64,000 nt of DNA from Liolophura sinensis (lineage: Eukaryota > Mollusca > Polyplacophora > Chitonida > Chitonidae): the NCBI RefSeq assembly GCF_032854445.1, contig NC_088305.1:18401717-18465716 (forward strand), given 5' to 3'. The translations under genes were made by a program, and so were the position numbers. Below are positions 7,121 through 62,400 of the stretch, piece by piece. A model generated the notes under the pieces. The model was not told the origin of the DNA and did not search any database. It worked only from the letters and a program-made list of their open reading frames with translations. Within the stretch, counting starts at the first letter, position 1. Each line of letters opens with the position of its first letter.

Positions 7121-7159
7121 AAAATGGTACTTGTTGCTGCCTCATTTGGAGCTCAGCAC

Positions 7160-8235: not shown

Positions 8236-8318
8236 GTAGATATTTTTAGATGATCACTGTAGTATTTGTCAATATGTTCTAAGGGCTTTGACTTGATATA
8301 AACTGGAATATCAAATTT
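8236..8318. repeat. Dispersed repeat, also at 13,993-14,070
   Basis: The segment TTTTTAGATGATCACTGTAG followed by TATTTGTCAATATGTT and GGGCTTTGACTTGATAT recurs nearly identically at 13,993-14,070, where it sits at the left edge of the second helicase-type duplicate. Confidence 0.8.
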
Positions 8319-25600: not shown

Positions 25601-26166
25601 GTCTTTAAAAGTTTCCAGTTCACCTTTGCATCCCAAGGAACGTATTCCAGGAGATCCAACGTAAAGTTTTTTTGTGAAAACGTATGGCATCAAGCATGTA
25701 TCTAGTAGCTCTCAATTTCACCAGTCAAACGGTAAGGTAAAAAGAGCTGCGCAGACAGCAAAGAACATTGTCCGTTAGAAGGATCAATTCCTTGCATTAC
25801 TGTCGTTTAGAGATACGCTTATACCTAGTTTAGGCCACAGCCCGAATGAATTGATGTTGTCAAGGAAAGTTTGGACGACTGTTCTTGCCTTGCCCAGTAT
25901 GTTACAGCCTAAATGGCCTAACAGAGGCGAGATCCAGCATGATGATAGCCGAGCCAAATCTGACCAGGCCTATCATTTCAACAAGAGGCATGGTGCTAGA
26001 GACTAGCCTGTGTTAGAGCCCGGAGACAACAGTCGCATGAAACTTGACAACGACAAACAGTAGAGCCCTGCCGGTACTGTTGTTAAAGAGTCGGGATATC
26101 CGAAATCCTACATTATACGTGGCGAAAATGTTGGATTGTACCGCCGAAAACCTCCCCAGCTTAACT
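25601..26166 (+). pseudogene. Ty3/gypsy integrase C-terminal fragment
   Basis: Frame-shifted plus-strand relic. It contains an integrase core end (SSSQFHQSNGKVKRAAQTA, around 25,697-25,750), a PNELMLSRK-type block (about 25,833-25,870) and the chromatin-proximal C-terminal end (GYPKSYIIRGENVG, 26,094-26,135). The zinc-binding N-terminus and most of the catalytic core are missing between 25,500 and 25,680. It is continuous with the upstream RT/RNase H relic. Confidence 0.75.
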
Positions 26167-32498: not shown

Positions 32499-35400
32499 GT
32501 TAGTTTACACATCTTTGCTACTGTCACGTGGGTATTCAGTTGTCAATAAATGTACAGAGGTATTTCCAGGGCTAATTGAAAAAAGTCTTTGATAAAGCTT
32601 GTTTGTAAGTCTTGAAAATTTTACAAATCCAGCTCAGTGTGCAAGTACATTAGATAAGTTTAAGTCATCCTTTAAAAACTGTGTGCTTGTCATAACCAAA
32701 CCCTAACCAAAATAAAAAGTATGGATGATTTTTTTTTGTCTTTTTCTGGCTCATGAATAAAGAAAATAAAGAAAAAAAGAAATCTTAATGAAAATTTAAA
32801 CAGTGTTTCCCTTGTTGGAGGTTCGGTTGGGTTTCTTGCGAACTTATTACTAATGGTGGCTGTATGATTGAAATTTCTTAAATTTGACGGCTACCTTTGA
32901 TGTAAAACTTTGTCCATGAACCATTTTTGCTGAATCTGATAGGCCGGTTGATCTTAAAAAGATCTTTTAAGGTTTGTTTGGAAGGTAGGACAATATCCTA
33001 ATACTGGGACAATGTTAGCACCAAAAGTAATATGATTGACATCTACATGTATATATTTCTAAAAACCCACTTTTAGGGGCAAAGTGTTTGATGATTTACT
33101 GTGTATGTAATGATAGAAAACTACGAAATCCAGTGTGTACTATGCATGTAATGATACTTCATCAACTAGGCCCATACTTGAACATATACCATCCTGGTGT
33201 TCTTGAACCTAGTGGCATGGTTTTTGAAACTGTGTTTTTATTGGTTGTCAGTACTTAATTAAGTGAAAGGACTGGATCACTGCAAATGTCCAGCTTTTGA
33301 CCAATGGGATGGCATGTTTGTATCCAGCTCAGACAGTTTTACACTGCCGGCTCTTGACCAATGGGATGGCATGTTTGTATCCAGCTCTGACAGTTTTCCA
33401 CTGCCGGCTCTTGACCAATGGGATGGCATGTTTGTATCCAGCTCTGACAGTTTTACACTGCCGGCTCTTGACCAATGGGGTGGCATGTTTGTATCCAGCT
33501 CTGACAGTTTTACACTGCCGGCTCTTGACCAATGGGATGGCATGTTTGTATCCAGCTCTGACAGTTTTACACTGCCGGCTCTTGACCAATGAGGTGGCAT
33601 GTTTGTATCCAGCTTTGACAGTTTTACACTGCCGGCTCTTGACCAATGGGATGGCATGTTTGTATCCAGCTCTGACAGTTTTACACTGCTGGCTCTTGAC
33701 CAATGGGGTGGCATGTTTGCATCCAGCTCTGACACTTTTTCCACTGCTGCTTTAATCAGAAGATTTGTCCGATACATTGCAGTGGTTTACTCCGAGCACT
33801 CAAATTTTCTCCACCAGCAAACCGGATTGCCAGCATATACACTTAAATGAGAACATTCTTAAGTACAACGTTGAAACAATGCTCAAATAAATAAATATTT
33901 TTGTCTGGCGCTCTTCGCATTATAAAACACCGCTTCCTGTTTATTTGCAGATGTTCTACTACAGCAGGCACTTGTGGGACCAAATCCTAACAAAATTGTG
34001 CTGTCCTTTCTGAGGCATGCAGTCTGCACTCATGTGAGTTACCGTAGTTCTTCTATAATTTCAGACTCTGTAATTATTTGGACACTCAAGAATGTCTCCC
34101 ACCCTCACACCTAGATGTCTGAACATATATTTATGTTTATGATGTTAGAAATTGCACAACCCAAGCCTCGCATGTAATATTTTGTGTATTGGAATCAGTC
34201 TTAAGGTAGTGAAAAAAAAAAAGAAAACTTTTCCCCACAAATCCCAATTCATACAATGTCAAAAATTGTCACCAGTAGATTACCAACTGCATAGTTAAAT
34301 AATTCAAGATGTTAAGTCATTGATTATTAATAATATTAGTTATTGTAAATACCCACCCGTGATAAAAATCGCTGATTGGCCTTTGCTTGCCATAAAGTAA
34401 CATTGCTAAGGCACAAAGAGACGTCAGCATGATGTCGAATCTTGAAACTCTACAAGCACTTCGTAAGGATTTTGTCCATTATGATAACAGCCAGGTATGA
34501 AGAAGAAAATACTTAGCGGAAAACAGTAATTTTAACAGACTAGCTGATCGTGGAATTTCCCAAATTTCTAAAATGTTAGTGATAGGTGGAGACATTTTTG
34601 AGCAGTAGAAGAAATGTGTAATATTCTAGCCCTTGTTTAAGTGCAGTTTTTAGTGGAGTGTTTCATGGAAAGGGTGTCAGAATAACTGTTCATGAAGCAG
34701 GCATGTCAGGGTGAAAATCTGAGGTTTGCAAACAGAAAATTTCGGGTAATAATTCAAGAGATACATGGAAAGCTACCATAAAGCGATGAGTATAGTTTTA
34801 CAGAAAAGGTCAGAAAGATACGGCTGAATTACCCAGCTGTTTTATACATATTTTCTGTCAGTGGTCAGAAATGACGTCATTGATGACCATACGTGGATGC
34901 TGAACCAGCTTTTCGCCCCCAGTATGGGCTCTCCCCCATTAAAGCTATTATGTCTTCACAGCAGGCTGCTTATACGTAATTTCCAGACTGACTGCTAGGG
35001 CTTGAGGAAAACCATACTTTTAAGCTATATATGCACTCCAACAATAAGGGTGAGAAGCTTATGTGTATTTTATTTTATGTCAGGCCACATCATATACTCG
35101 GTAGTAAGAAATAGAAACCAAGCATGTCATGTATCCGTTGTTTGTTTGAACAGGTTATCCGATACAGCGCTGTCTTTGACAGCATTGTCAAGTATGAAGA
35201 TATCAATAAACATTACTGCGTGGTCGGACTTATTGGGCTGGCCGAGGAATTCTTGGCCTCATTGAGGTAAGTAATGGTTCTCCCAACGCAGTATTTTGCT
35301 CTACTGTAAATGACCTAAAGTCCCTCTCATAGGTGCATTTTTAGGCAGGGTTAAAATTTTGCGTTTTTACGGGAATCCAGAGAATCCAGTCATAATTCAT

Positions 35401-38400: not shown

Positions 38401-41400
38401 GGATCATTTAGATTATTTCTTATCCAGTCACACCAGGATCAAATTTCAGTAAAATAACTTATAAAATAAGATCTGAGTTTTTGAGGCTTCTGATGATCAT
38501 ACTTTATCATATTATGATATTTATATCATATTTTTTATGAGGCTACGTTGAGTGAAATTTTGTCATACCTAAGATGTTAAAGGAGGAAGTTATAACTGTT
38601 TCCTTTTTTATTTTTTATATACATGTATAGTCACTGCAAGGGTCATGTGGGTATGTGGGAAGGTCTGCCAGCAACCTGCTGATGGTCGTGGGTTGCCGCC
38701 AGGCTCTGCCCGCTTTCCTCCCACCATAATGCTGGCCATCGTCGTGTAATTAAAATATTCTTGAGTACGGCGTAACACCAATCAAATAATGTGACTAGAA
38801 AGAAATTTGTTTTTAAAATTTGGCACATATAAATATTTTTGGGGAATGAGATTGGATAGTTGTGCCAGATACATGTGTCTGATATTTTGAGTGTACATCT
38901 TGTATATATAATTTTCTTAAAACCAACTTTTTTTCACATAACCCCATGGCAATGTTTTGTAATTTCAAACAAACTCGTCTTTTGAAACCATTAGTGTCGA
39001 TCAACCTCAATTTCATCTGGTCATGCTTCAGTGATTAAGACAGGCATTGTCATAAACACACATGACAAAACTGTGTACACGTCTATGATCATGTGACAAA
39101 ATTGATTCATATGATTGGTTGGCAGTCTGCATCGTTCAAAATCATGATCAACAGCCCGGTCTCACTAAACGACAGGTGAAGAAGATCAACTGGAGATTTT
39201 GATTTCAAAAATCAAGCATGGTCTGATACTCGCGATCAGTTCGACAACTGTTGTTCAGAATCGCAGTCACAAGACTGGGCAAACTACACAAGCATCCGGA
39301 GTGGCCTAGTGTACAAGTGTTCTGTGGGTGATGTGGTTTATTTCCTGATGCAATAAAAAATATATCAAGAATATATTTATTTTCTTCATTTTGTGAGCGA
39401 TTTATGGTTTTGCCTAAATGCATCAGTGTTGATTTTTTTCTGACAGACACGTATCGCCTACTGGAACAAGCTGAAGTGGATATCCGTGGGACACTCAGTC
39501 AGCTTCCCCAGGGCTACATTCCCAACCCTCTCAAGGAGAAGATTAGTGAAACGTTTTCTCTCATGGACAGGTAATTCTATTAAGATTCACTGCAGATTTT
39601 CTTTGATCCTGGTAAGCAGCACAGATGGTCAACAGTACAGATTGCTAGCTGTAGAGATGGTAAAGGGTACAGGTGGTAAGTGGCACAGATGGTCAACAGT
39701 ACAGATTGCTAGCTGTTCAGACGGTAAAGGGTACAGGCGGTAAGCGGTACAGATGGTAAATGGTAAAGATAAATTAATTTATTTATTTGGTGTTTTTATG
39801 TCGTGCTGAAGGATGTGACGACAGGAGTCCGAGAGAAACTCATGACCATAGATGAGTAAGGGCACCAATAGAAAGCAGTACAAGTAATAAGAGACAGGCG
39901 GTAAGACAGTAAGATGTACAAATTTAAGTCTCGCTTAAGGATATTTCACTTATGTGATTATGGTGAAAGGAAACCGGACAGAGCTAGAGAGAAACCCCAT
40001 GGCTACAGTAAAGGTGGCCTGAAGGTGGAGCAGATGGTAAACGGTAAAGATGGTAGTGTTTTCTTGGAAATTTTATGTATCTATAAATCAAAATTATGCA
40101 TTAATTTTTTTTTTTGCTGTGTTGGGTGGTTTCAGAGGGTTGCTTTTGTTTTGTTAAAAGAAGCCTGGAGTTCATAATTACCATAGGGGAACATCACCTC
40201 AAAGTTCACATACATGTAATTAATGAAGTCAAACTGTGAGAAATAACAAAAAGAAAAGGTCTTCATACAAGGTATTATTATTTTTTTTATTATTATGAAG
40301 AAAATAACGTTTTTATAACAACACTGAAACATGGAGAAATGATGGTAAGCATTTACATGTACCTGTGTTCATGTTGCAGTGTCCAGGAGATACAAGTGGA
40401 CAATAAGCCAGTACTTGATCTCTCCGACCAGCCTGTCTGCTCTTCCCTGAATGGTCTGGTCTCCCTGGAAGCTGTGCTCAACCCCACCAATAATATACAG
40501 CCTTTTGTAGAGCAGCTCTTTGTCATAAAGAAGCTACAGGTGAACTGAGTTTATATGTATACAGGTGTTAATGGCCTGTGTCAAATGATGCTTATTGTCT
40601 CATCTAGGCTTGAAACTTAAGTAGACATGAAACAGATTTCTTTTGTACTTTGACATGTTCTAACATATAGTGGCCTGTGCAGCCGAGTGGTTATCATGCT
40701 AGTTTAGCACAATGGCTCAGGCAGCTCTCACAAATGCAGTCGCTGTGAGTTCAAATCCAGCACACGCTGGCTTCCTTTCTGCAGTCCAATTTGGAAGGTC
40801 AGTGGCCAACTTGTGGATAGACCACCGTAGTGTGTTAAAGTAAAATATTCTTGAGTGTGGCCTTAAACACCAATCAAATAAATACTCACATCATGAGTGG
40901 TGATGAGATACATGATTTTGTTGCGAAAAGTCTCTTAAATATATACTCTTACTTAAAACAAGTTACACAAATAACTAAATAAATAAATTATTGCATGTAT
41001 TTTAGATGAAGATTTATTTTTTGGACAAGGCCACTGTGGCTCAATCGGTTAGAGTGCCAGCGCAGAATAATGACCCAGGAATCTCTCACCAATGCGATCG
41101 CTGTGAGTTCAAGTCCAGCTCATGCTGGCTTCCTCTCTGGCCGTACGTGGGAAGGTCCGACAGCAACCTGCAGATGGTCGTGGGTTTCCCCCGGGCTCTG
41201 CCCGGTTTCCTCCCACTGTAATGCTGACTGCCGTTGTACAAGTTAAATATTCTTGAGCGCAGCTTAAGACACCAATCAAATAAAAAAATAAATAAATTTT
41301 TTGGGCTACTGTTATTCTCTTCTTCCAGAAAATGTTTGACATTTCTTTCATGTGCCACTGTAGTTTCAGCAGTCTGGAAACATTGCTATTGGTGAAAAAA

Positions 41401-44400
41401 ATTTTCCAGTAGGAAATCACACTACCCTTACATTCTAAGGAAACTTCAAAACACCTTTCTAAAGATCAGTACAACTCTCAGAATTTGATCAAGTTTGTTT
41501 GCCTTTTTGATCTGTTCCTCCAGAAAATGTCTCGCAGTGACTTGTGTCGGGAGCTGTTCCGGGCTTGCTATATGGGTCTGATCGACTCGACAGGGAAACA
41601 CGAGGAGAGGAAATGGGCAGCATTTACCTTCCTTAAGGTATTCGCATATTTTAACAACTCCTGAAAAATTACAAACTGTTAGATATTGGATAGGCTGCTC
41701 ATTAGTATTTAGTGCTATTTTCTTTTTTTAAGAGAAACAGATCTGACATTGATTGCCATTTGCTGAAGAGAGGCCAGTGTAATCTGGACTATTAAATGTG
41801 TTAGTATCGTGTGTTATGTTTGTGTACCCAGATTTGTTAGAAGTGTACATTATGCAGAGGTATACCTACAGGGGCGGAGAAGTGTTTTAGGTGAGCTCGT
41901 GTAGGAATAAGAAACACCAGGTCCATAAGCTGGAAACTATACTGCTCTTTGAAAATCTTTATTTTAGGTTGATTTCCTGCATGAAACTAACAAATGTTAG
42001 TTGCTATGGCGAGGAAAACTGTTTCTCCTTCTATCTTAATTCATCAACAGTTATCGGTCAGTTTTTGCAATTGCAAACTTTGGAATAGGAACATTTTCAG
42101 TTAATTTTCCTAAACCCTACTAACTTTTATCTCGATCATTTCGATCTGAGTCCTTCAGCAGGTTGTAAGTGGTCCTTTATTGACTTACCTAAGTATGAAG
42201 TCAGCACTTGAACAACATTTGGATTAATGACTGCTTTCTTTGTACTCTGTATGAGCTGAGTGGCCAGTAGACTATTGCACAAATAAAATACTGGGCCGTC
42301 AATGCAGAGTAGGCTGTCAGTGTGTACCCTGATTTGGTTATAATGCCATTGATTATGCCCATGTGTACCCTGATGGGGTTATAATACCATAGATTGTGCC
42401 AGCATGTACCCTGATTTGGTTATAATGCCATAAATTGTCAGTGTGTACCCTGATTTGGTTATAATACCATAGATTATGTCAGTGTGTACCCTGGTGTGGT
42501 TATAATGCCATAGATTATGCCAGTGTGTACCCTGATGTGGTTGTAATGCCATAGATTATGTCAGTGTGTACCCTGATTTGGTTATAATACCATAGATTAT
42601 GCCAGTGTGTACGAGGGCCATATCTAGACAAAAAAAAACTTGGCCTGATCCCTAAACTTAAAAGGTCACATTGTAACAGTGCATAAAGAAATTTTATAAA
42701 ATGCAACTCAGAATGATGCTTTCTGAGAATTGGTGAAATTTGCTGTACTTACTGTGCTTACTGTGTTCAATGGACTTGTTAGTTTAATACATCTTGGCTA
42801 GCTAGTTTCAGCTTTAAACAGTTTGGAAACCCAAATGTTTGCCAGAACTAAAAATGCTTAAGATATGGCCCTGCGTATATGTAATTTGTTAAGAGCGTAC
42901 GCTTTGCCAATGGGTACCCTGATTTCATCAGATAACCAATCTTGTGTCTCGGACAGCCTTTCAACATCTGCTCACTTTACCTTTAAAGTGAGGAAAGTTT
43001 TTAGAATCTTAGGATCTGGTTTCTCATTGAAGGGGAGATAACTCAGATAGGATGAAGAGGATAATAGCTTTTTTGCAGAGGTCATCATCTGGGTTTTTAC
43101 TCAAGTTTTCATTGAATCTGTTTCAGCTACCGCAGGTCCTGATCCGTGTGAAAAACAGTTTTAATGGTCGTGATTTTTCTGAGGACCTGGAAAAAGGTAT
43201 AGATGACCTGCTGAACTATACCCCTATCTTGGACCTGACCGACACCAAGTGCAAGTGAGTCGTTTAGTTCTCATTCACCAGTGTTTCATCTGATTACAAA
43301 ATATTTATTCAAGCATATTCTGAGGGCATTATTCTGTGTAGACTTTTTGTGAAACCCTCAATTTGGCTAATTAATCCTACCATTGCATTTTTTTCTCCAA
43401 AATCAAATTAAAAGGTTCTTAACACTCATTGAATGTTGCTTCTTCACATGTGGAAAGGTTGAGGCATTCGGGTACTGTAAGGAAAAAGCAGTTCAGGCCT
43501 GTTGCACTTTAATCATTGAATGTTGCTTCTTCACATGTGGAAAGGTTGAGGCATTAGGGTACTGTAAGGAAAAAGCAGTTCGGGCCTGTTGCACTTTAAT
43601 CATTGAATGTTGCTTCTTCACATGTGGAAAGGATGAGGCATTAGGGTACTGTAAGGAAAAAGCAGTTCGGGCCTGTTGCACTTTAATCATTGAATGTTGC
43701 TTATTCACATGTGGAAAGGTTGAGGCATTGGGGTACTGTAAGGAAAAAGCAGTTCGGGCCTGTTGCACTTTAATCATTGAATGTTGCTTCTTCACATGTG
43801 GAAAAGTTGAGGCATTAGGGTACTGTAAGGAAAAAGCAGTTCAGGCCTGTTGCACTTTAATCATTGAATGTTGCTTCTTCACATGTGGAAAGGTTGAGGC
43901 ATTAGGGTACTGTAAGGAAAAAGCAGTTCAGGCCTGTTGCACTTTAATCATTGAACGTTGCTTCTTCACATGTGGAAAGGTTGAGGCATTAGTGTACTGT
44001 AAGGAAAAAGCAGTTCAGGCCTGTTGCACTTTAATCATTGAATGTTGCTTCTTCACATGTGGAAAGGTTGAGGCATTAGGGCACTGTAAGGAAAAAGCAG
44101 TTCAGGCCTGTTGCACTTTAATCATTGAATGTTGCTTCTTCACATGTGGAAAGGTTGAGGCATTAGTGTACTGTAAGGAAAAAGCAGTTCAGGCCTGTTG
44201 CACTTTAATCATTGAATGTTGCTTCTTCACATGTGGAAAGGTTGAGGCATTAGTGTACTGTAAGGAAAAAGCAGTTCAGGCCTGTTGCACTTTAAATCAG
44301 TAAAGTGTGAATTTGATATTAACCATTTTTTTTGTGCTTGTTTTAAATTTAAAATTTTTAGTCTGACAAAGCACACTAATTACTAAAATGACTTATGTTC

Positions 44401-47400
44401 GTTATCTTTAGTTTCTGAGGTGCTGTTCTTTCTGCAAATGAAAATCGTTTGACTTGTTGCTTAATTGTAGTCTCAAACCAAACTTGTGTTTCAGCTGTGA
44501 CTGTCTACAAATACTACTGGGCGAGTGTCATAAACATGGACTTCTGTCTGAGCTACAGTGGAAGAAGTTAATGCAGAGAAGGTGATATGCATGTAGCTGC
44601 CTGTTATGCTGTATGCCCTTGTCTTTGAAAAAGAGTGTATTTTGGTATAAATCCTTGGAAAGGGCCATCAAATTTTAAACATCATCTGCATAAATTTATG
44701 ACTTTCGGATGTCAACGGATATGTATCTGACTTTAAGTCGAGAATGGAATGTTCAGTTTTATTCAGGGTTTTCCTTTGATGATCAACACGCTCAAGAAAT
44801 ATGGCTAAATATTGACGTAACTCACCAGGTTACCTCCCCTTGTACTGTAGATGATGGAAGATGTTCAGTGCACTTCAAGTGTTAGTAATTGTGCTGTAAT
44901 TATGAAGCCTACTGTGTTCTGCTGTAGACATCGCTGGGAATTTTGAATACTTTATTATACATGGTCAGTAGAAAAGGAGATTGCATTTAGTTTGATAGAT
45001 ATATAATTTGCTTTCGCTCTGTCATATTGTTTGCACGTGTCATCCGCAAGCGAATGTTGCATTGTGGTAATCTTCGTTGTGTAGCCTTGTTTACATGTTA
45101 TTTCGTCGGGCGAGCAGTTTAGACCCGTGACAGATTTCCTCTTTGAATTCTTTTAATTTAGCTTTTTGCGAAAAATATATGCCCATTTAGTTTCGAGTCA
45201 GATGCAGCTCATTTCTGTATTTACCTGAACCAACTCCAAAATTCTGAATTTCTTTCTTCAATATGTCCCTTTAAAAGCACCTACACTGTAGGTATTATTT
45301 TAATATTGGTGAAATGTCAGAATTTCCTTCACTGACAAAGGTTTTATTTCACTTCAGTTATATATCAACTTTTCACACCCAAATGCCAGGACATCTGGAA
45401 TGAGACATTTTGTTTAGTCAGGGATGACATCATGATATAGCTTTATCACACGTACATGTATGTGATGCAACCAGACATGTATGGCCTCATGCTATATATA
45501 CACTCATCATAAAACTGTTCAAATACACAAAATTATCATATAGTTAAAATATGAATAATGAATAGAACGTTTGCCTCTCGTAGGTTATCATTTCCACCTG
45601 TGAAGAATATTGTAGTCCGAGCTGGCTCTGATGTTAGGTTTGGCAAATTTTGTTTAGCCACATTAACCTTGGCAAAGCAACGTCAGAGTGCACTACATTT
45701 TAAAACCTGGTGCAGTTATCGGCCCTTGTCGAGATTTGGCGAGGCTGTCTGTACACCCATTCGCTTTGAGCATCACCAAGGAATCTCGGGCAAACAGAGC
45801 CTGTGAAAGAACCGATCGACATCGTTCTTGTGATAAATCGACAGACGAAAAGATAAGGAACATCATTGTCCGCAAACTTATTAAAGGCCGTGAGAAGTAT
45901 TTAATGGGTAATTTTTGTCTCAAACGCCATGGCAACTGCATCAGGTTTTTAAATGGAGCAGTGGGGTCATCCATGTTGCCAAACCAGAGCAGTCTCAGAC
46001 TATACTGTATTCAACCTTCACTGTGCAATATTTGCTATCTATCTTTCATCGTTACAACTCTATCAATAATGTACGAAGTCACTGCTCTGCAATCTTTACC
46101 CAATCGGTAGCAGTCATAGGTGTGACAGTATAATTATTTTGGCCTTTCTGATCTTAGCGCTGTCTAATTATAGAATAATACCTGTGTATGACTGTGTCAA
46201 GCATTCTTCCTTATTTGGGATTAGAGGTCAGTATTTGAATGTATCACATGACTTGAACATTATGCAGTTTTACGATCGGCAAGTGTTCTCTGAATGCCTT
46301 GTTTTTCGTCGTCATGCACATGTGCAGCTATGAACTATTTACATGATTTATAGAGGACATTGGTCAGAGGACAACATCGGTTTTAGAGGTCACCAATGTT
46401 TTTTGAGGTCAACGTTGTTTTAGAGGACAACATTTTTTTTAGAGGACAGCATTGCCTTTAGAGGTCAACACTGCTTTTAGAGGTCAGCATTGTTTTAGAG
46501 GACAACATTGCCTTTAGAGGTCAACATTTCTTAGAGGACAACATTGTTTTTAGAGGTCAACATTGTTTTTAGAGGGTTTACAGATTTATGTATTAAGCTT
46601 CAGGAAAGAAATTGTTTTATTGTATACATACAGGACAATGGTACAAATGAACACCTGCATTTATGTCATATTCAGTGGCATAAATATTTTAGCCCAAATT
46701 ACCCTACTTAAAGTAAAAGAAAGCTAAAATATGAAGTAAAGTTCACCATATAGACAACTGAAAATGATGCGTAAAAATACTTTGATTTATTTTATCAGAT
46801 TTTTTTAAGAGTGTTGAAAGGCAATCAAATATTTGAATACTATGGTGGGCTTTATGTGCCATATAGACGGTATCTAGGAACTCTGACTTCACATCACCAT
46901 TTTTTCCTGATGTTCACCACAAGGAAGGGATTTTTAGAACCATTATTTCAGATGTCGTTATCGGTAAAAAGAGTTATACCAACATTCATTGTCATGATTA
47001 AAGTTGGAAAAACCTCCTGTGACTTCAGAGTTTCTAAACTCTGATAGTATGGTCCGTAAAGCCGACTTTAGAATTCATATGTTTGAACGCCTTTAACTCT
47101 CTTCACAAAGGTCTAAAAAAAACCAAATGAAAGTATATTTACGCATAGTTTTAAGTGGTCTATTTAGTGATGCCTATTTTGATTTTTAGAGGTCTTTACC
47201 TTTAAAGGGTGCCCAAATTTGAAAGCTATATACGGCTCAGGCATATGATCAGTGTCAGAGCAGCCATAAACTCATGAATCTAATGGGAACAATTTTTCAT
47301 ATCTCAGAACTTCAGAGAGTCAGAAGACCCACCCTGTAGAGCCGCCAATACAACAGCCTAGCGCAAGTCTAATCCTGAGAGCTGAACCCACAGTCACCAG

Positions 47401-50400
47401 TATCATGAAGGTATGGGAGGTTATTACCGTAACATGAACCCACAGTCCCCAGTATCATGAAGGTCTGAAAGGTTATTACAGTAACATGAACCCACAGTCA
47501 CCAGTATCATGAAGGTATGGGAGGTTATTACATTAACACGAACCCACAGCCCCCAGTATCATGAAGGTCTGAAAGGTTATTACAGTAACATGAACTAACA
47601 GTCACCAGTATCATGAAAGGCTGGAAGGTTATTACAGTAACACGAACCCACAGTCACCAGTATGATGAAGGTATGGGAGGTTACTACAGTAACATGAACC
47701 CACAGCCACCAGTATCATGAAGGTATGGGAGGTTATTACATTAACATGAACCCACAGTCACCAGTATCATGAAGGTATGGGAGGTTACTACAGTAACACG
47801 AACCCACCGTCACCAGTATGATGAAGGTATGGGAGGTTACTACAGTAACACGAACCCACCGTCACCAGTATGATGAAGGTATGGGAGGTTATTACCGTAA
47901 CATGAACCCACAGTCACCAGTATCATGAAGGTATGGGAGGTTATTACCGTAACATGAACCCACAGTCCCCAGTATGATGAAGGTATGGGAGGTTATTACA
48001 GTAACATGAACCCACAGTCACCAGTATCATGAAGGTATGGGAGGTTATTACATTAACACGAACCCACAGCCCCCAGTATCATGAAGGTCTGAAAGGTTAC
48101 TACAGTAACATGAACCCACAGCCACCAGTATCATGGAGGTCTGAAAGGTTACTACAGTAACACGAACCCACAGCCACCAGTATTATGAAGGCTTGGGAGG
48201 TTACTACAGTAACACGAACCCACCGTCACCAGTATGATGAAGGTATGGAAGGTTACTACAGTAACATGAACCCACAGCCACCAGTATCATGAAGGCTTGG
48301 GAGGTTACTACAGTAACACGAACCCACAGTCACCAGTATGATGAAGGGCTGGAAGGTTATTACAGTGACATGAACCCACAGTCACCAGTATGATGAAGGG
48401 CTGGAAGGTTATTACAGTAACAGGAACCCACAGTCACTAGTATTGTGAAGGTATGGGAGGTTACTACAGTAACACGAACCCACAGCCACCAGTATCATGA
48501 AGGTCTGAAAGGTTACTACAGTAACACGAACCCACCGTCACCAGTATGATGAAGGTATGGGAGGTTATTACCGTAACATGAACCCACAGTCACCAGTATC
48601 ATGAAGGTATGGGAGGTTATTACCGTAACATGAACCCACAGTCCCCAGTATGATGAAGGTATGGGAGGTTATTACAGTAACATGAACCCACAGTCACCAG
48701 TATCATGAAGGTATGGGAGGTTATTACATTAACACGAACCCACAGCCCCCAGTATCATGAAGGTCTGAAAGGTTACTACAGTAACATGAACCCACAGCCA
48801 CCAGTATCATGGAGGTCTGAAAGGTTATTACAGTAACACGAACCCACAGTCACCAGTATGATGAAGGTATGGGAGGTTATTACAGTAACATGAACCCACA
48901 GCCACCAGTATTATGAAGGCTTGGGAGGTTACTACAGTAACACGAACCCACCGTCACCAGTATGATGAAGGTATGGAAGGTTACTACAGTAACATGAACC
49001 CACAGCCACCAGTATCATGAAGGCTTGGGAGGTTACTACAGTAACACGAACCCACAGTCACCAGTATGATGAAGGGCTGGAAGGTTATTACAGTGACATG
49101 AACCCACAGTCACCAGTATGATGAAGGGCTGGAAGGTTATTACAGTAACAGGAACCCACAGTCACTAGTATTGTGAAGGTATGGGAGGTTACTACAGTAA
49201 CACGAACCCACAGCCACCAGTATCATGAAGGTCTGAAAGGTTATTACAGTGACATGAACCCACAGTCACCAGTATCATGAAGGGCTGGAAGGTTATTACA
49301 GTAACAGGAACCCACAGTCACTAGTATTGTGAAGGTATGGGAGGTTACTACAGTAACACGAACCCACAGCCACCAGTATCATGAAGGTCTGAAAGGTTAT
49401 TACAGTAACATGAACCCACAGTCACAAGTATCATGAAGGTATGGGTATTACATGTACAGTGTATTTAAGGATAAACTTAAAGGCTAAATTTTTTGTTTAA
49501 TGTCAATACTTCTATATCCTGTGATAAAATTGAACCATGGTACTCGTGTTGTGAAGAAATTAATTTACATGTATTTATTTGAATAGCTGTGTTACCTCTT
49601 CTCTGACAGTTCTTCGTTTTATATTTGTTTTGCCCAGACATTAGATGCAGATTTCTCTAAAAACCAGGATGCTTTGCTGGGGGTCCTGTCTCACATGTCT
49701 TGCGGGAAGAGCTTTGAGCTGATACTGGCAGCAGCGGCTGCCACGGGCAACCTGCAGGGCTTCTCTGTCAAACTAGTAAGGTGAGACATTTGTGTACTCT
49801 ACCCTAATGGTCAAGCTGATACTGTCAACACTGGCTGCCACGGGCAACCTGCAGGGCTTCTCTGTCAAACTACCAAGGTGGTTATTCAAGCCTGTTCTGA
49901 AGGAATTATTCTGTGTAGACTCGGAAACTTACGTTTATACTTCTCGTGAAACCCAGAAATTGATGAACCCAACTAACGTAGATTTGTCTCCAAAATCAGA
50001 TAAAAAAAGGGGCTTCATTCGCACTGAAAGTGGCTCCCATATGTAAAAAAAGGTTGAAGGTAAGGTAGCACGAATAGAGAATTGCATGTGTTTATACCTG
50101 TGCTTTTGTTTTCAGGTTGAACGAGTTTGCTAAGCAGTCTTCTGGGGAGACAGGAAAAGGAGCACTGAATCGCTCCTTGCTGTTTGACATTTCCTTCCTC
50201 ATGCTCTGTCACATTACGCAGATCTACGGCACTGAGGTACTCGCTCCTCTCTACCACACATGAGATACATGTACTACAGTTTTGCATTTATGTCTCACCT
50301 ACAGGCAGGCTCTTTGGTAGCCTTTTTTAGATGAACATTTTCTGCTGCCTCCACATAAATTTCACAAAACGCCACCCACCCCCTCCCTCTGAATCCCACC

Positions 50401-53400
50401 CTCCCCTGTTAACAAGGAATGCACTTACATCTATACAGTGGCATTCGGTTTCATGGGTGGAGGAAACTGGAGGGTAAACCATCGACCTTGAACAAGTTAT
50501 TGGCAACCTTATCCCATATGTGACTTACAAATGTGCATGCTGTATTGATGAAAGACAAATCCATGTAGTCTTCAACGAAAATTAGACCTACCACCATCGC
50601 TTGTCCGTGTTTTAAATTTGACACAAAATACTAAACGTTATTAGACTTTCTGTTTGCAGATCCTCTCATGCAGCGCAGACTGCATGGAGTCTTTTTTCGT
50701 GAAATGGGCGGTGCGCTGTCTGCCAGATGAGGGCAAGTACAAGTCAATAGACAACAGCGGTCCCACCGACTCCCTCAAGCTGGACAGTCTGCTGAGCCAG
50801 ATGTACGTGGGCGGGGAGATCAAGACTAGGTCAGTCACAGCCTCTATATAACCCAGTTGGTTGATTGATTAATTCATCAACCACTCACTTTCAAACCTCC
50901 TGATGAAAAGCTGCAGCCTTTAAATGTTTCTGATAAACTTAATCCATAACTAGCTGTGTGTTTCCCCTGGTTTCTGATCGGTTTTCTTCCACTATAACCA
51001 CCTTCGACCTGGCCGCTGACGTATATTAAGCGAAGTATTGTTGAGTAGGGCGTACAGGCAAATCAAGTCAATATTTATATCAAGTATTATGACATTTAAT
51101 TGTGATGGAAAAGGACTTTTAAATTTAAATTTAAATTTGAACAACATATTAATACTGATTGGCAAGCCCCTGAGCGGTGTCTGCCAAGCAACTTATTACT
51201 AAAGACTAAAGACATAAATTCCAAGGGATTAAAAAAACAAATCGAGAACAGAAAGTAATTCAATCTGTTCGTACATTGTTATGCAGTATAAAAGAATCTG
51301 TGTACAAATTTTAAACTTCCTGTAGCAAAACATTTTAATTGAAGTTGTGTTTGAAATTTTGACATATTAAAGATGTTTGATAAATATGGCCTTAGGTTGT
51401 CCACAGTTAACTATTATTATGAATGTGATGTACAAGCTTTTCGCCTCCCCCTAACCCGTTCCAAAAAAGAACACATTCTCATAAGAAGTGACATTACATT
51501 TTAAAGAGGTGAAGAAAGATAATGAGAGTTTGTTAGCCATGTTGTTAATCTCTGATAGCACTGGTATATATAGGACTGTTACTACTGGATATTCTAAAAA
51601 ACTAATAACAAAAAGGTTTATAAATTGTTCCAGAATACATGCAGAGGTCTTTGTGCGAGGCCAACGTTTTACCGTCATTTCTTACATGCAGTCCCTTATG
51701 TAGGAAGGCCTGCTAGCAAACTGCGGATGGTCGTGGGTTTCCCCCCGGGCTGGCCGCCGTTGTATAAGTGAAATACTCTTGAGTATGGCGTAAAACACCA
51801 ATCAAATAAATGAATACATACATGCAGTCAACTACAAAACAGTATGGGCGCCTTAGGGGCTGAGGTGGTTAGTGTACCTGACACAGTGACCCAGTAGGCT
51901 TTCATCGGTGCAGTGACTGAGTTCAGGTCCACTTCATTCTGGCTTCCTCTCTAGCATATGTGGGAAGGCCTTCTAGCAACCTGCAGATTGTCAAGGGTTT
52001 CCCCCGGGCTGTGCCTCCCACCATAGTGCTGGTGGCCATGGTATAAGTGAAACATTCTTGAATATTGCGGAAAATAAACAGTAAGTAAATAAAATAATTT
52101 AAAGGCAGATGAGTGGAAGCACATGTGTGTCATTAAATAAACAGGTTTGTTTATCTTCATCAGTACCCGTAAATTGTCTCTTCCACTTCAAATATATAAG
52201 AAAAAAATATTTCATAATATTCATATTAAAGTAGTAATGTCCATTTTCTTGAGTTTTTTTGTTTTTTTTTCTCACTGATTAGATGTAGGTGTTAATATTT
52301 AATTTTCTGTCTTTTCTGTGCAGCCTGCAGAAGTGGAATGAAGTGTGCATGAATGCTCCGTTTGCTGTTCAGGAGGTCTTGTTTGCATGGGAACAAGGAG
52401 TTATTCCTGCTGAGAATGTGAAGGTACAGTACTGCAGAATCATAAGACAGGTTTCTTACTGGATTTTTAAATCCTTCATTAAAGTACTTGAAATATTTTG
52501 AAAGGTGTTTAAAATGTTTTGGGAAATATCCTTGAGAGTACTTTTAAACATCAATTTATTTATTTATTTGATTGGTGTTTTACACCGTACTTTAGAATAT
52601 TTCACTTATACTACGATGACCAGCATTATGGTGTGAGGACACTGGCAGTGCCCAGGGGAAAGCAATGACCATCCACAGGTTGCTGGCAGACCTTCCCACG
52701 TACGGCAGGAGAGGAAGCCAGCATGGGCTGGACTTACGGCAACCACATTGGTGGGAAGCTGCAGGGTCATCGCACTGTGCTGGTGTGTGAACCCCTTCGG
52801 CCTCGAAGGCTGCCAAAAACTGAATACTTTCCAAGAAAAGACTACTGCCATGACAAAACAAACTCAGCCCCTGTCTAGTGATAAATTAAAAAAAAGTTTC
52901 ACTTTGAAATTGTCCCTATACGTGTGAAACACATGTACAAATAGGTAGTTGATTTAGATATGCATGACTCTGTGGATGTGTGATTATGGAGATGACCACG
53001 GGCGTCTCCGTGCCCCTAGGGGTGAGCACATAAGCACGGTGCATCTCACCAATGCGATCACTGTGAGTGCAAGTCCAGCTCATGCTGTCTTCCTCTCTGG
53101 CGCCTGCAAGAAGGCCTGTCAGCAACCTGCAGATGGTCATGGGTTTCCCCCAGGTTCAGTCTGGTTTACTCCCACTATAAATGCTGGCTAGCATCGTGTA
53201 AGTGAAATATTCTTGAGTGTGACGTAAAACAACAATCAAATAAATAAAACATCAGTCAAACAAATAAATCAATAAAGATGTCTGCTATTTTTTTAGGTGA
53301 CCTTGGACAATGTGAAGAGCCGAATGTGCTGCCTGCCCATTGTTGTGTCTGCCTGGCTGTGCAGTTACATCAACACTGTGGGGGAGGAGGGACGGGCCAA

Positions 53401-56400
53401 ACCCCTCAGCATGTTACAACAGCTCCTTAAGACCATTCAACCAGACCCCACAAACCAATACTACAATGAAAGGTAAGGATATAAATTATCTGAAGTTTAA
53501 AGGATACATGCAACGCTTGCTTTTTATTTCTTCGTGCAGAATATATGATATTGCGTACATGTATGAAATAGTTCCCTGTTTTCTTCTTGGGGCGTGCAAA
53601 AGGCTTTAAACTACAGTCTTCCCAAGGCCCCTGTAGTCAGGGTGGAATTTATTCAGCCTGCTGTGTTGATGTCAACGGTGATAGCTGCCAAGACAGTTTT
53701 GTCGGAGTTGGGGAGCCCAAATTGGGGTCGATAAGCTGGTTCTGTGTCCCCAGTAGGTTTATTGATGACATCATTTCTGAATATTTCCACCCATTTACAG
53801 AAAAGATGCATAAAGTATAGGCATTATTGAGAAATAATAAATCCATGTATGTATTTTACTCTTTTGCCATATCTTTTCCCATTTTCCTTAAAAGCATACT
53901 ATTGATTTTATAGTACCTTTTCATTGAAGACATACATGTATAATAGCTGTAGTTCACAGAAAATTCCGCATTGAAAATTTTTTCACTTTTCTTTGAAAAG
54001 CCTATTTTGAGTGTTTCTAAACCACTGGCAATCTAGGCTAAATTACAATCAGTATCGCAGCATTTTTTTTCTACCTAATTCTGCTTAAGCCATTGTGCCA
54101 GGGGGCATGTAATTGGTGGAAGTGGTCTTCAACGAACATTACTGCGCATGTGGTTCCATGCCAACCATTATAATCATCAGTTATCCATGTAATCCAGCCC
54201 TTCTCCGAGTCCATTAATCGGACGCTGCCGTTCTCTTACAGTGCCCTTTGCTTCAAGAAAAAAAAAATAAATAAATATAACCAGTGGAAGACAACAAAGC
54301 AGGGCTGGCTGGTCATAGTTGAGAATAGTTGAAGATTCTCGCGGCTGCGTGACGGCAAAAATAAACAATGGCCGTTGTGCATATATGTACCATAGGTTGA
54401 CACAGAGAAAGATAAGAAACATTTCTGACTGAAGCTCTATGGCCGCAGATTAGTTTATAAGGGCTAATTTTTGGTTCTGACGCCTCTTAAAAATTGCAAG
54501 GGGGTTGCACAGCATTTTTAAATGGAGCGCGCTCTGACGTTGATGTGGGGACATGCTATATGTATGTATAATGACCAATCAAAATTTTGCCAAACCTGAT
54601 GTCAGAGCCAACTCGGACTAAGTAAGGGCAGGTGTTGTGGTGTACACGTGTAGTGGAGGTCTCCTGTGGGGACTGAACCCCCTTAAAATATATGAGAATC
54701 AAAATATCTAACAAAGAGGTGCCCTTCACCTCTGGTTCCACCTCCCTGCCCTTCTGAGGCTGGATTAGGCCGTGGTCATCTAAGCATCCCCAAGGCCTCA
54801 TCAGCTTGCATTGTTTTTATGTTATTGTATGTTACATGTGTTGATTACTAACACAACATTTTGAGTAATTCTACTGCAGTGACATGTAATAAATTGCAAT
54901 TTACATCGCTGCATTTTTTATGTGGACTTCGGCTTAAGCCATGATGCTAGGTGGCGTGTAATTTACTACTATTTAAGCATTTATATGAACAGTTAAAATA
55001 AAACCTTAACTGAGGTAAAATTGACAAGAGGTCAGCTTTTCACCAGTTATGTGTAACCAGCTATTAGTCAGATATCTTTCGCGGATCTTCACCGAGTTTT
55101 TGGACAACTGATAAACGAAAATCAAACTTCAGCATAGAAACGTCAAGTAATAAAACAGCTCAAGCATTCAAGTAACAATGTTATCATTTAAACTTGTTTG
55201 TACCTGTCAGATGTGACAAAAATTCTATACAATACAGTAACTTGATCAGACAAAGGAAGTTAATCCTTCTAAGCTTTTAATCTTTTGAAGACTGTTAATC
55301 TGTATAAGACGAAGCCCTTACGCACTGTGTAAGCAAATATTAGTGTCACTCCGGGAGACGATGAGGGATTAAAATGTGATATAAATAAATCCCAGTTTAA
55401 TTCTCATGCATCAGCAAGTTAGTGAAAATATGACAGATTTGAGTAAATTTCTCAGAAATCGTCATTATGGAAAAGAAGTTTGAAGTGCGGAAACCCCCGA
55501 GCGTTGTATCGGGCGCATCGGAAAGGTGATCTGAAAGGAAGGCAAGTACAGTCGATAAAAAAACAGCCTCTCTCATCGTATGTATATTGTATCACGTACA
55601 CGTGCCCAGTACAAATTATTGATTTGTATGTCTCTAACCGCAGCAATAAATCAACAACAACAACGTCACATTGTGGCAATACTTAGACGGAGCTAACCCT
55701 CCTTAAAAGAAAGCAAGATTAACTGACGATCAGTTAAGCTGGATTTGTGAAAGCCGGAATACATCTAATTATTTCTTTCTAATTAACATATTTTGAAAAA
55801 GTATTTGTGCTTGTTAATGAATTTATAACTGTGTCGCATGCTACATTAATAAATTACTTACATGGGCTTTATATTCAGTGGTACTTATTTTCGCACATTT
55901 CCGCGAAATCCGCGAATCCAGGTCACACCTCATGGTGTCTACGTGTTGATTAATGTTTTCTGTTTTTCAGGTCACACCTGATGGTGTCTACGTGTTGACC
56001 AATGTTCTCTGTTTGCCAGTTCACACCTGGTGGTGTCTACTTACTGAAAAAAAGTTCTTTGTTTTTCAGGTCACACCTGATGGTCTCTGTACTGAGGAAG
56101 ATGACAAGCGATATCCTACCAGCAGCCCAGACTCTCTCCCAGGAGCACCTGATTCCAGCCAAGACTCTGCCCAATGATGCCTTGGCTCGCTGCCTCAGGA
56201 CAGTGTTCAGTCAGGGATGGTTAGATCTCACTTCTCTGCACACCCTGGAGCAGATCCTCAACCTCTGTGGCTCTGACTGGCTGTGCGACCAGCTTGTCAG
56301 AGTTAGTATCCAGTAAAATACTGTATTATGATGCTGGTATGGAAAAATACACACAAAGGCCTTTAAGAAAATAATACTTTTAATTCTGACACTAAAGTTT

Positions 56401-59400
56401 TAAAGTAATCTTAAAAAAAACCTACAAACTCGATGAAAAATGCAATAAGCTTAAGGTGAAATACAGGACTTTTGGTTGATATGGTGTGATTTGTTGAATA
56501 CAAGTTGCTACATGCATGTAAGCTCATGATAAAAGTCATGATAGTAGTCACATGATAATAGCACAAGCTATATTTCATATGATTTGCACCTCCAACCTGA
56601 AAGGAAAGGAAGCAGAAAAAATGAAGGACATGTACATGTAAGCTTCATCAGAGGGAGAGAGAAATACTGTAGTGCTATGCAAAAAATAAAGTTAAAGGAT
56701 ACATGAAAATGAACTCAGAAATAGAAAATATGATTTTCTTTATAGCAAGGCAATACTATGTTGGGCCTAAGAATTTGCTCCATAAAGTTTTTGCCATGTT
56801 ATGGCTGAAAAACATGGTCATTACATCTGCATGATGCCTTCATGAACAGTTGCAATCAAAGCATGACTGAGATACCTTGTTTAATTGTTATTTGACCTGG
56901 AACTCATTCATGGACTACGAATTTGAACTTTGATATGGAATTCCTGCCTGGATTATCCACAGTCTGCCCGGCATCATTGAAAACTGATGACCGCTTCTCT
57001 CTTGAGTGTTACAGGCTTTATTTCCTATTTGTATATTTTCTTACATACCTTTGTCTTTGGGAGTTAGTGTTAAACATTGTTTTGGAAATGGATCTTGCGA
57101 TTATCGACTTGGAATGCCCTTTACGTACGACGAATGGTATATGAATGTCAGACATGACTATTATATGTAATGCTGATGCGGCATGAAATTATTCATTCAT
57201 TCATTCATTTGCCTCAAAGCGTACATGTTTAGAGATACATGTAAACGAAGGTCATGAAATATTATGTTTGGTGCTGAAATCTACATTTCCAAGTCTCAAA
57301 ACCCCTTTTTGAAACCATTAGATCTCTCAAAATCAAATTAAAACTGTATTAAATCTTATATGTAGGCAAGGTTGAAATTTTAGATCAAGAGCCTAGCCTG
57401 TTGAAATAAAAAATAAAATAAAAAAATAAAAATAAAATCTTGTAAAGCATGTAATTTGTGGGAAATCTGGAAATAAATAAAAAGGTGGAATTTGAGTTTT
57501 ATTTTTATTCAGTTTTTGAATTTTTTGAGCGGTGGTTCTCCCGTTAAAACAGGAAATAAAATGGTTGTCGCCTAATCGTTCTTTCCCCAAAAAATGATAA
57601 AAATACACATTGGATGTGTTGATTGTTTTCAGCACATGCTTGAGGGTAAACAGCCAATAGACCTGACGAGAGCCCTCAGCATGGCGTTCTCAGCATTCCA
57701 CATAGACTTGGAGCCCCTGACCCTCAGTCTGCTGCTCCACACACTGCCCACACTCCTCCAGTCCTCCCACAGGATCCACCTGCTGATTGACCCACGGGGC
57801 TACACGCTCGCTAAGCTCTGTGTCATGTGTATTAGCTCGGCTTACACTGCTAAGACGGCTCATAAAGGTAAAAACCTCTGTGTGTGTGTGTGTACTTGTG
57901 TGCACACATGGTCTTAAGGGTGAAGTCACCTGTAGTTTGCATGCTGCCAAGATAGGTCATAAAGGCAAGAACACACAGAGTGTGCATACTGCCAAGATAG
58001 GTCATAAAGGCAAGAACACACAGAGTGTGCATGCTGCCAAGATAGGTCATAAAGGCAAGAACACACAGAGTGTGCATACTGCTAAGATAGGTCATAAAGG
58101 TAAAAGCACATGTAGTGTGCACACTGCCAAGACAAGTCATAAAGGCAAGAACACATGGAGTGTGCACACTGCTAAGGTAGGTCATAAAGGCAAGAAACGC
58201 AAGAACACACGTACTGTGTACATTGCCAGGATAAGTCCTTAAAGGTAAAAACACATGTAGTTTGCACACTGCAAGATATGTCATAAAGGTAAAAACACAT
58301 GCAGTGTGCACAATGCCAAGATAGGTCACATAGGCAAAATATAACTTTTGTTCACACTGCCAAGATAGGTCCCATAAGCAAACATACAACTTTTGTTCAC
58401 ACTGCAGAGATAGGTCACATAGGCACAAATATAACTTTTGTTCACACTGCCAAGATAGGTCACATAAGCAAACATACAACTTTTGTTCACACTGCAGAGA
58501 TAGGTCACATAGGCAAAAATATAACTTTTGTTCACACGGCAAAGATAGGTCACATAGGCAAAAATATAACTTTTGTTCACACTGCCAAGATGGGTCACAT
58601 AGGCAAAAATATAACTTTCGTTCACACAGCAAAGATAGGTCACATAGGCAAAAATATAGCTTTTGTTCACACTGCCAACATACTCTGTACACATATGCCA
58701 GTTAGCATAATGCATTCACCATTGTGATATTTTGTTTTATCTTATGCATCATTTGCATTTAGTCTGAATTGGACTGGTGATTTTCTTCTTTCTTTGCTTA
58801 GATTGTGTGGGATATGCGCGTCGTGGCAGGAAGCGATCCCGAAAAGATGTTGATCTAGAGGTAAGGCATTTAATAGATAATTGCTTGATTGGTCTTAGCT
58901 GACGTGCTGAAGACTTTTTCACTAACATGTACATATTCTTGATGGATACGACCGGTGAAAACTGGAGTGCTTGGTATAAACCACAGACCTCCAGCAGGTG
59001 TCTGACAAACCCCCTGACAAAGCTTTGGTAGACACAGCAAAATTTGAGCCAACTAGGCCGTGCAAGACATTTAAGATGAACTATTTCTAACTTAAAACAA
59101 TGGATAAATAAGAAAAAAAATGGCCACACAACCTATATTTTGCTGTTATCATACTTTTAGGGAATGTTTTGTGGCAATATACATTTACACATAAATTTCT
59201 GGATCTACTCATATCTTAAGTGTCCATTTCAGGATTTGTATTTGATCTGATTGATAGGACTTGGAAGAAAGTGAGAGTAGACCAAGTAAACAAAGACGGA
59301 TCCAGGATCCCGCGGAGATCACTTTCCACCTGGACGGATATAATCTAGGTGAGCTGCCTCATGATAAACCCCAAGGGAGAAGGCCACAGTCTAGTGGTTA

Positions 59401-62400
59401 AAGGTGGTTGTCTGTCAGTTGCTCGAGAACAGGAGATGCGGGCCCAAAACTGGACTTGGATAGGGAATTCGTAGATTTTTCCTTGCCCTCACTGTTTGTG
59501 GGGACTCGATAACAGAAAAATGATGTCTGTGTGGCGTCTTGAGCAGTCTCGCATTCTTTGAAAACCAAGAACAGTCTTCTTTAAACATTGTAACAATGTT
59601 GCAGCTTGTACGTTTTCACCAATATGATGTGCATATCTGTACATCTCTTGCAAAAAAGTGCATCAGTAACTTGCCAATGTCAGGGGTTTAAATCTCTCTG
59701 TCTCTTTATAAGAGCTCATAAGCCCTCTATTGGTGGTAACTAAGGTAACTGTCGATGTTCACCTCTTCTGTCAGTCTGCTTTAATCCTTGTCTCTCTGAC
59801 ACACCCTAAGTTTTTCGCACTTTTGCCTTTTACCATGTGAAATGTTCAATTGAAACTTTGCACATGTGTCCAGAGTTCTGTGATAAAACCTCAAGACAGG
59901 TACAAGATTTTGTTCATTGACTTAGGAAGTTTTGCTTATTGGATTTTATCAAGTTCAAATCCAGCTCATTCTGGCTTCCTCTTCGGTCATATGTGGGAAG
60001 GTTTGTCAGCAACGTGCGGATGGCCTTTGGTTTCCTATATGCTTTGCCTGGTTTCCAGTCCACCATAATGCTGGCCACTGTCATATTATTGAGTCTGCCG
60101 TAAAACACCAGTTAAAGGAAATAAATCATTACATGTATACGACTGCATGTGACAGGGGAGCTGATAGGTAGCTATGTGTTTGGCAGCAATACTTTCAGAA
60201 CGTTTTCTTCTAATGTTATTTTCCAAAATTGTGTTTTTCTTCATTCTACACTCCATTCCTCATTTCCAGATCTGATTTTCTTCTAATGTTATTGTCCAAA
60301 ATTGTGTTTTTCTTCATTCTAAACTCCATTCCTCATGTTCAGATCTGATTTTCTTCTAATGTTATTTTCCAAAATTGTGTTTTTCTTCATTCTAAACTCC
60401 ATTCCTCATTTTCAGATCTGATTTTCTTCTGTTATTTCCAAAATTGTGTTTTTCTTCATTCTAAACTCCATTCCTCATGTTCAGATCTGATTTTCTTCTA
60501 ATGTTATTTTCCAAAATTGTGTTTTTCTTCATTCTACACTCCATTCCTCATTTCCAGATCTGATTTTCTTCTAATGTTATTTTCCAAAATTGTGTCTTTC
60601 TTCATTCTAAACTCCATTCCTCATTTTCAGATCTGATTTTCTTCTAATGTTATTTTCCAAAATTGTGTTTTTCTTCATTCTAAACTCCATTCCTCATTTT
60701 CAGATCTGATTTTCTTCTGTTATTTCCAAAATTGTGTTTTTCTTCATTCTAAACTCCATTCCTCATGTTCAGATCTGATTTTCTTCTAATGTTATTTTCC
60801 AAAATTGTGTTTTTCTTCATTCTACACTCCATTCCTCATTTCCAGATCTGATTTTCTTCTGTTATTTCCAAAATTGTGTTTTTCTTCATTCTAAACTCCA
60901 TTCCTCATGTTCAGATCTGATTTTCTTCTAATGTTATTTTCCAAAATTGTGTTTTTCTCCATTCTACACTCCATTCCTCATTTCCAGATCTGATTTTCTT
61001 CTAATGTTATTTTCCAAAATTGTGTTTTTCTTCATTCTAAACTCCATTCCTCATTTTCAGATCTGATTTTCTTCTAATGTTATTTTCCAAAATTGTGTTT
61101 TTCTTCATTCTAAACTCCATTCCTCATTTTCAGATCTGATTTTCTTCTGTTATTTCCAAAATTGTGTTTTTCTTCATTCTAAACTCCATTCCTCATTTTC
61201 AGATCTGATTTTCTTGTTATTTTCCAAAATTGTGTTTTTCTTCATTCTAAACTCCATTCCTCATTTTCAGATCTGATTTTCTTCTGTTATTTCCAAAATT
61301 GTGTTTTTCTTCATTCTAAACTCCATTCCTCATTTTCAAATCTGATTTTCTTCTAATGTTATTTCCCAAAATTGTGTTTTTCTTCATTCTAAACTCCATT
61401 CCTCATTTTCAAATCTGATTTTCTTCTAATGTTATTTTCCAAAATTGTGTCTTTCTTCATTCTAAACTCCATTCCTCATTTTCAAATCTGATTTTCTTCT
61501 AATGTTATTTTCCAAAATTGTGTTTTTCTTCATTCCTCATTTTCAAATCTGATTTTCTTCTAATGTTATTTTCCAAAATTGTGTTTTTCTTCATTCCTCA
61601 TTTTCAAATCTGATTTTCTTCTAATGTTATTTTCCAAAATTGTGTTTTTCTTCATTCCTCATTTTCAAATCTGATTTTCTTCTAATGTTATTTTCCAAAA
61701 TTGTGTTTTTCTTCATTCTAAACTTCCCTCCTCATTTTCAGATCTGATAACACCGAAGGAAGATGGGGAGATGTCGCCCACATACGATACCAGGGACCCC
61801 TTAAATAAAGCTTTAGGTGAGTATTTGGCTCCATAATCAGGGATCACTTGAGTCCTTGACAACATTGAGAGGCCTACAGTGTAGAAGTAACTTTCCCAGG
61901 TCCTCCAAATCATTTGTTTTTTTTTTTGTTTTGCTTGTAGGATATGGAAGACCCTTAAAATTGATAGTGCAAATGCAATGTGAGGGTTGTTTCTCAACAG
62001 GGACTCTGTTTGGTCGTAGGTTTAGGCTCGTCTTAATTCAAAAAATTTACAGTGTCACAATTTGTCAAAATGAATTTACGTCCTCGACAGGTCACAAATT
62101 TTGCAAGGCAAAACCATTGAAGAATTCGAGCACATAATCGCCTTTTGTAAAATCTTACGCTGTTGTTGTTGTCTATACATTAGTGCGTATACATTTTTTA
62201 CCATTTTTTTTAATTGAGTTCCAGCTCTTCTCCAAAACTAGGTAGCTGATAGGTCGTAGAAGTTACGCCCAATGGAGAGATTTACGACACGATTTGAGAA
62301 TCCAACGTAGGAAAAAGTTCCGTCTGACATAAATACCCAACATTGTCATATAGCTAAGACACTTTTGAGAAAAAACCTGGCGAACAACACCTTTTTGGGG

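Follow-up and report, generated by a model that had tools for sequence, protein, structure and literature searches.

Minisatellite-like tandem repeats that lie across exon-intron boundaries, on the 5' as well as the 3' side, are known from amphioxus as 'mirages' (PMC3087553, PMC3902484), and other papers cite Canestro et al. (2002) as their original description. In the passages of these papers that treat them, mirages are reported from Adh3 and the globin genes BflGb6 and BflGb9, with troponin C and PGBD5 added by PMC3902484; many of the copies retain AG or GT and splicing is normal (PMC3087553, PMC3902484), instability in length is reported, and the two BflGb6 haplotypes carry 6 and 3 mirage copies. 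Here we describe tandem arrays, probably of the same class, at splice junctions of the MED24 gene of the chiton Liolophura sinensis, which lies in a stretch of 64,000 nucleotides (contig NC_088305.1, positions 18,401,717 to 18,465,716; hereafter the window), and in control genes of the same genome. The initial annotation of the window knew of no described equivalent for these arrays, a statement that no longer holds, as the mirages of amphioxus, in the parts of the two accounts that bear on it, are of the same kind.

The likeness concerns the position of the repeats, the boundaries affected and the state of the copied splice signals. Units of the chiton arrays span the boundary at 4 of 40 junctions in MED24 and at 13 of 332 control junctions, 5' and 3' boundaries are both hit (11 donors and 6 acceptors), and AG or GT is kept in many of the copies, if not in all. 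The chiton arrays differ from the amphioxus mirages in their host phylum, Mollusca, and in their length, with up to about 100 copies at one control locus (L019) versus the 6 and 3 copies of the BflGb6 haplotypes. Our search of the open-licence literature found no mirage in a mollusc among the matches listed, and one mollusc gene paper reports, in the relevant passage, simple repeats in introns (PMC3862624). As far as that literature shows, mirages are extended from amphioxus to a mollusc; what is new is the host, the size of the arrays, up to about 100 donor copies, and an estimate of frequency, with about 4% of the junctions sampled being affected.

Two further systems share part of this pattern. 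The route to intron gain for which Rogers (1989) is cited in PMC3087553 and PMC2812944 likewise starts from the tandem duplication of a segment with a splice signal (AG/GT), whereas the chiton copies lengthen introns that already exist. Internal tandem repeats that alter human gene structure in segmental duplications, as outlined in PMC2812944, are also minisatellites at exon-intron boundaries; these change transcripts, as far as that outline goes, whereas the chiton copies would stay intronic, as argued from the reading frame below.

Arrays at MED24 splice junctions

MED24 occupies positions 32333-63910 of the window with exons 1-21, on the forward strand, to which all window coordinates refer. 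The assignment rests on an open frame, on PF11277 matches and on MED24 chains in the PDB. Joining the exon-proximal junctions of the 21 exons yields a single open frame of 947 codons, and all 20 introns are GT-AG. In the 609-Mb genome, PF11277 (Med24_N) gives 12 exon-by-exon matches, every one of them within the MED24 locus, and a 450-residue query, hand-joined from the gene's first half, matched the PDB MED24 chain 8t1i_S in three stretches (E=2.1e-82). The frame reaches no stop codon, and the gene therefore seems to continue beyond the window.

In the self-alignment of the 40 MED24 junctions, a copy in the adjacent intron was counted if it covered 7 or more bases both of the exon side and of the intron side of the junction. 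Junction-crossing copies were found at four, the donors of exons 10 and 17 and the acceptors of exons 16 and 20; by a rule based on Tandem Repeats Finder (TRF) arrays, with 6 bases on each side, 3 of the 40 junctions are straddled. The largest array, detected by TRF as well as by self-alignment, is that of exon 10 (47308-47410, authentic donor after 47410): it extends over 47383-49445 and consists of 39.7 copies of a 52-bp unit with 27-28 exonic bases. Beyond the authentic copy there are 39 further ones, of which 29 have GT and 20 score within 0.5 of the authentic donor or better, and the units differ from one another at many sites. At the exon 17 donor, a 45-bp unit with 22-24 exonic bases is repeated over 57844-58682, a span taken from the aligned copies; TRF's own array begins about 65 bases beyond the donor, after a GT run, and many copies have GC in place of the donor GT.

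TRF and self-alignment both recover the two acceptor arrays. That of exon 16 is short (55919-56088), with 3.4 copies of a 49-bp unit that includes 19 exonic bases. The exon 20 array (60203-61748) has a unit of 73 bp, in some copies 61 bp, with 7 exonic bases; 18.6 copies of the 73-bp unit reach up to 61535 and are followed by 61-bp variants, for which TRF gives a stretch of 4.1 copies with 100% match. It contains 21 decoy acceptors, of which the 15 distal ones are CAG and the six nearest the exon (61337-61741) are CAA. The identical 61-bp variant is among the CAA copies, which may therefore go back to one mutation that was spread with this variant by growth of the array.

A fifth array had been claimed at the donor of exon 11. 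There, intron 11 contains a single copy of the exon end (49814-49880, with 64 exonic and 3 intronic bases), identical to 49717-49783 at 61 of 67 bases by a hand count on the alignment; rather than an array, this is a duplication of part of the exon in which AAG|GTG is included, and four of the five claimed arrays remain. The initial annotation had also stressed that the copies always run away from the exon. This direction is indeed seen; it is no independent observation, because tandem duplication of a straddling segment, with the proximal site spliced, dictates it.

Three sequences, the units of exons 10 and 20 and the segment of exon 11, were searched in the genome and matched the MED24 locus only; as the search skips very common words, lack of a match is no proof of absence. 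These three sequences appear to be of local origin. An introner or another transposed element was considered as their source and rejected, no dispersed copies of the three having been found in that search.

Frequency of straddling arrays in control genes

The controls comprise 39 pieces of the same genome with 332 junctions, picked by their density of exons matched by profile hidden Markov models: sample 1, of 20 pieces, holds myosin, CCT and MED23 genes (99 exons), and sample 2, of 19 pieces, adaptin-type, class I tRNA synthetase and RNA polymerase genes (67 exons). A junction was called straddled when a TRF array covered at least 6 bases on either side of it, a rule set after the TRF table of sample 1 had been viewed and already fixed when sample 2 was drawn. 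Junctions were assigned by splice-site score. Tried on 11 MED24 exons, the score was correct for their 21 true junctions; in the controls, 77 of 127 pairs of consecutive exons are phase-compatible, the shortfall coming partly from unmatched exons that may lie in between. Self-alignment scored +1/-1 ran into unrelated sequence, with exonic lengths of 500-1300 at L009, L013 and L020; array limits were taken from TRF, and alignment scoring was made stricter for sample 2.

By this rule 10 of 198 junctions are straddled in sample 1 and 5 of 134 in sample 2, or 15 of 332 in total. On review the L013 donor at 729 was dropped as a merged-exon call and the L020 acceptor at 2038 as miscalled, its true acceptor lying near 2085 and the copies deriving from the preceding exon, which leaves 13 of 332, about 4% (95% interval 2.1-6.6%). 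The L003 donor at 2589, the L020 donor at 1552 and the L026 acceptor at 6310, where the signal comes from self-alignment only, are uncounted. MED24 had been thought exceptional; its rate is not significantly above that of the controls, either by self-alignment (4 of 40, Fisher P=0.10) or by the TRF rule (3 of 40, binomial P=0.21). A bias toward donors, with a ratio of 7:1 in the reviewed sample 1, was likewise abandoned, the overall ratio in controls and MED24 together being 11:6 (P=0.33).

The array with the most copies lies in MED23 at locus L019, where a 46-bp unit spans the donor of an exon at 4062-4286 and is repeated about 100 times over 4.5 kb (4245-8788). Among its 97 recognised copies, 92 have GT and 81 score within 0.5 of the authentic donor or better.

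Two other control loci contain exon-like duplicates. Within 1454-2085 of L020, also in MED23, the intron holds copies resembling a shortened form of the preceding exon with both acceptor and donor, TTACAG|ATCAGACAAAC...CTCTATTACAG|GTGAGTT, and such copies could plausibly give rise to new mini-exons or introns. The myosin-head exon at 496-600 of L001 has an exon-like duplicate 484 bp downstream (81% identical); the pair may be mutually exclusive exons like those of muscle myosin genes.

Origin of the arrays and fate of the copied splice sites

Taken together, these data make it probable that the arrays are mirages of the amphioxus type, that is, minisatellites whose founding unit chanced to lie across the border of an exon and an intron. 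If a segment consisting of an exon end (e) and an intron start (i) were duplicated in tandem, by slippage or unequal exchange, e-i would become e-i-e-i, and the mirrored event would do the same at acceptors. The copy adjoining the exon would stay coding and remain the splice site in use, while the others would be intronic and spliced out, free to expand, contract and homogenise like any minisatellite, with the splice sites they carry tolerated and drifting.

Several results weigh against a founding by chance and in favor of real hot spots of tandem duplication at exon-intron borders or in the surrounding 200 bp. Such hot spots might arise, for example, in a heterozygous genome in which alleles match best at exons and unequal pairing ends near exon edges. 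Uniform placement over non-exon DNA predicts 4.6 straddles versus the 13 seen (P=0.001), the same null minus the arrays' own length predicts 6.4 (P=0.015), and the density of arrays near exons, in the first 200 bp of introns, predicts 6.9 (P=0.025), an excess of 1.9-2.8 fold; with the 15 straddles given by the rule, P falls to 0.0001, 0.003 and 0.005, respectively. (An earlier null, with 2.5 straddles expected in sample 1, was too lenient and is superseded by these.) Moreover, the density of array edges between -50 and +200 bp is 1.95 times that farther into the intron, and the heterozygosity of the genome is given as 1.24% in the relevant part of the assembly report (PMC11068029). A fourth null that confines arrays to their own intron speaks against a hot spot, with 5 straddles seen versus 2.62 expected in the 77 phase-compatible introns with 42 arrays (P=0.13), 3 versus 2.04 in MED24 (P=0.33), and 8 versus 4.66 with both pooled (P=0.10); with 42 arrays its power is low, and 8 of the 13 straddles lie outside it. 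Sample 2, drawn with the rule already fixed, has 5 straddles where 1.8 or 2.3 are expected (P=0.036 or 0.088), a result counted here against a hot spot.

The fine structure of the arrays points away from an origin at the border proper. Counted per junction in bins of 50 bp, array edges amount to 0.039 just inside the exon and 0.039 in the first intron bin, then to 0.027, 0.024 and 0.037, with mostly lower values beyond, and there is no spike at the junction, the last 50 bp of the exon and the first 50 bp of the intron each having 13 edges at 332 junctions, in a profile that predates the review and includes both of the calls dropped later (L013 and L020). Where the junction falls within the unit is consistent with a uniform distribution (17 arrays, Kolmogorov-Smirnov P=0.84). 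The proposal that duplication starts at the border finds no support in this edge profile, in the uniform-looking junction positions or in the per-intron counts, and the claim that the arrays exceed chance finds weak backing, from three nulls and not from the fourth. Because the outcome depends on the null chosen, a modest excess of straddling arrays over chance is possible rather than established. The excess of 1.9-2.8 fold keeps a weaker form of the border mechanism open, and overall we regard a hot-spot origin as unlikely, though worth keeping in mind. Equally doubtful is the broader proposition that the exon-intron borders of this genome really are 2-3 fold hot spots where tandem duplications arise, with mirages as a standing store of duplicated splice sites for new introns and exon ends; were it true, the MED23 arrays at L019 and L020 would represent steps in that direction.

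The copied splice sites offer a further comparison, as the initial annotation had suggested either tolerance of decoy sites or a role for them; such a role could lie, for example, in splicing regulation or in alternative exon ends. Over 20 arrays GT is kept in 190 of 220 donor copies and AG in 37 of 51 acceptor copies. When three doubtful arrays are set aside (the L003 donor, the L020 acceptor and the L026 acceptor at 6310), the counts for the remaining 17 are 183 of 203 for GT and 33 of 40 for AG. Retention on this scale would suit a function, as would the loss of AG from all six exon 20 copies nearest the exon, if it was selected; the latter is also explicable as the spread of one mutation with the 61-bp variant. 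When variability is measured against the copies' own consensus, in arrays with at least 4 copies, GT/AG columns vary like the others (0.104 versus 0.091; 17 arrays, Wilcoxon P=1.0), and the difference in the 14 undoubted arrays is not significant either (0.060 versus 0.086 elsewhere, P=0.15). Undoubted donors lean toward retention of GT (0.057 versus 0.089, P=0.08), which speaks against simple drift and makes a function slightly more likely; undoubted acceptors show 0.071 versus 0.077 in 3 arrays. Two apparent signals were discarded: a conservation of GT/AG (P=0.017) that was due to the use of the authentic, constrained copy as reference and was gone with the copies' own consensus, and a lean of acceptors toward loss (0.175 versus 0.100, 5 arrays) that disappears without two doubtful arrays. 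Overall the variation agrees with neutral drift, donors showing a slight tendency to be retained.

Reading frames bear on the same question. A premature stop would follow from use of each decoy tested, namely copies one to four after the authentic one at exon 10, three of which have GT, each of the 15 exon 20 decoy acceptors that are intact, and the exon 11 copy, and we infer for this reason that the proximal splice site is the one used in RNA. Tolerance of intact decoy sites is supported, and a role for them, which neither these frames nor the GT/AG columns favor, appears very improbable. MED24 exon 10 and the MED23 locus L019, each with an authentic donor followed by dozens of others of nearly equal score, are natural test objects for splice-site choice, which ought to be governed there less by the sequence of the site than by its position or the exon context.

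Finally, tandem arrays are classic sites of misassembly, and the passage on sequencing in the assembly report gives a coverage of 14x (PMC11068029). The same passage states that the assembly was built on HiFi reads with a mean of 8,347 bp, compared with MED24 arrays of 0.2-2.1 kb; the units of the exon 10 array differ mutually at many sites, and the coding frame is intact. We consider assembly artefacts the least probable explanation, with hardly any weight beside the one preferred here.

Other minisatellites and elements in the window

In addition to the arrays at junctions, MED24 contains minisatellites in introns 1 (33293-33747, eight copies of a 57-bp unit), 7 (42315-42612, 41-bp unit), 8 (43426-44295, ten copies of an 87-bp unit) and 9 (46366-46575, 19-bp unit) and in intron 5 (39610-39770, 32-bp unit), where the array begins 40 bases past the exon 5 donor; all were detected by TRF. 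Self-alignment found no junction-crossing copy for any of the five, in agreement with the earlier statement that those of introns 1, 7, 8 and 9 are free of exon-derived sequence. Outside MED24, tandem arrays with 202/377-bp units and a 71-bp unit (21401-22278 and 4708-5459) fit a minisatellite-rich genome.

The window also holds a Galactosyl_T domain (PF01762, E=1.6e-37) in an uninterrupted frame that is 353 codons long (18156-19214) and pieces of a reverse-transcriptase RNase H domain (24948-25605; PF17919, with PF17917 below the cut-off), which are probably a retroelement remnant. A dispersed element with an end like 'GTAAAACACCAATCAAATAAAT' was seen by eye on both strands, at about 51690-51820, 52550-52740, 53100-53260, 59970-60120 and 62700-62860; it is reminiscent of a mollusc short interspersed element (SINE).

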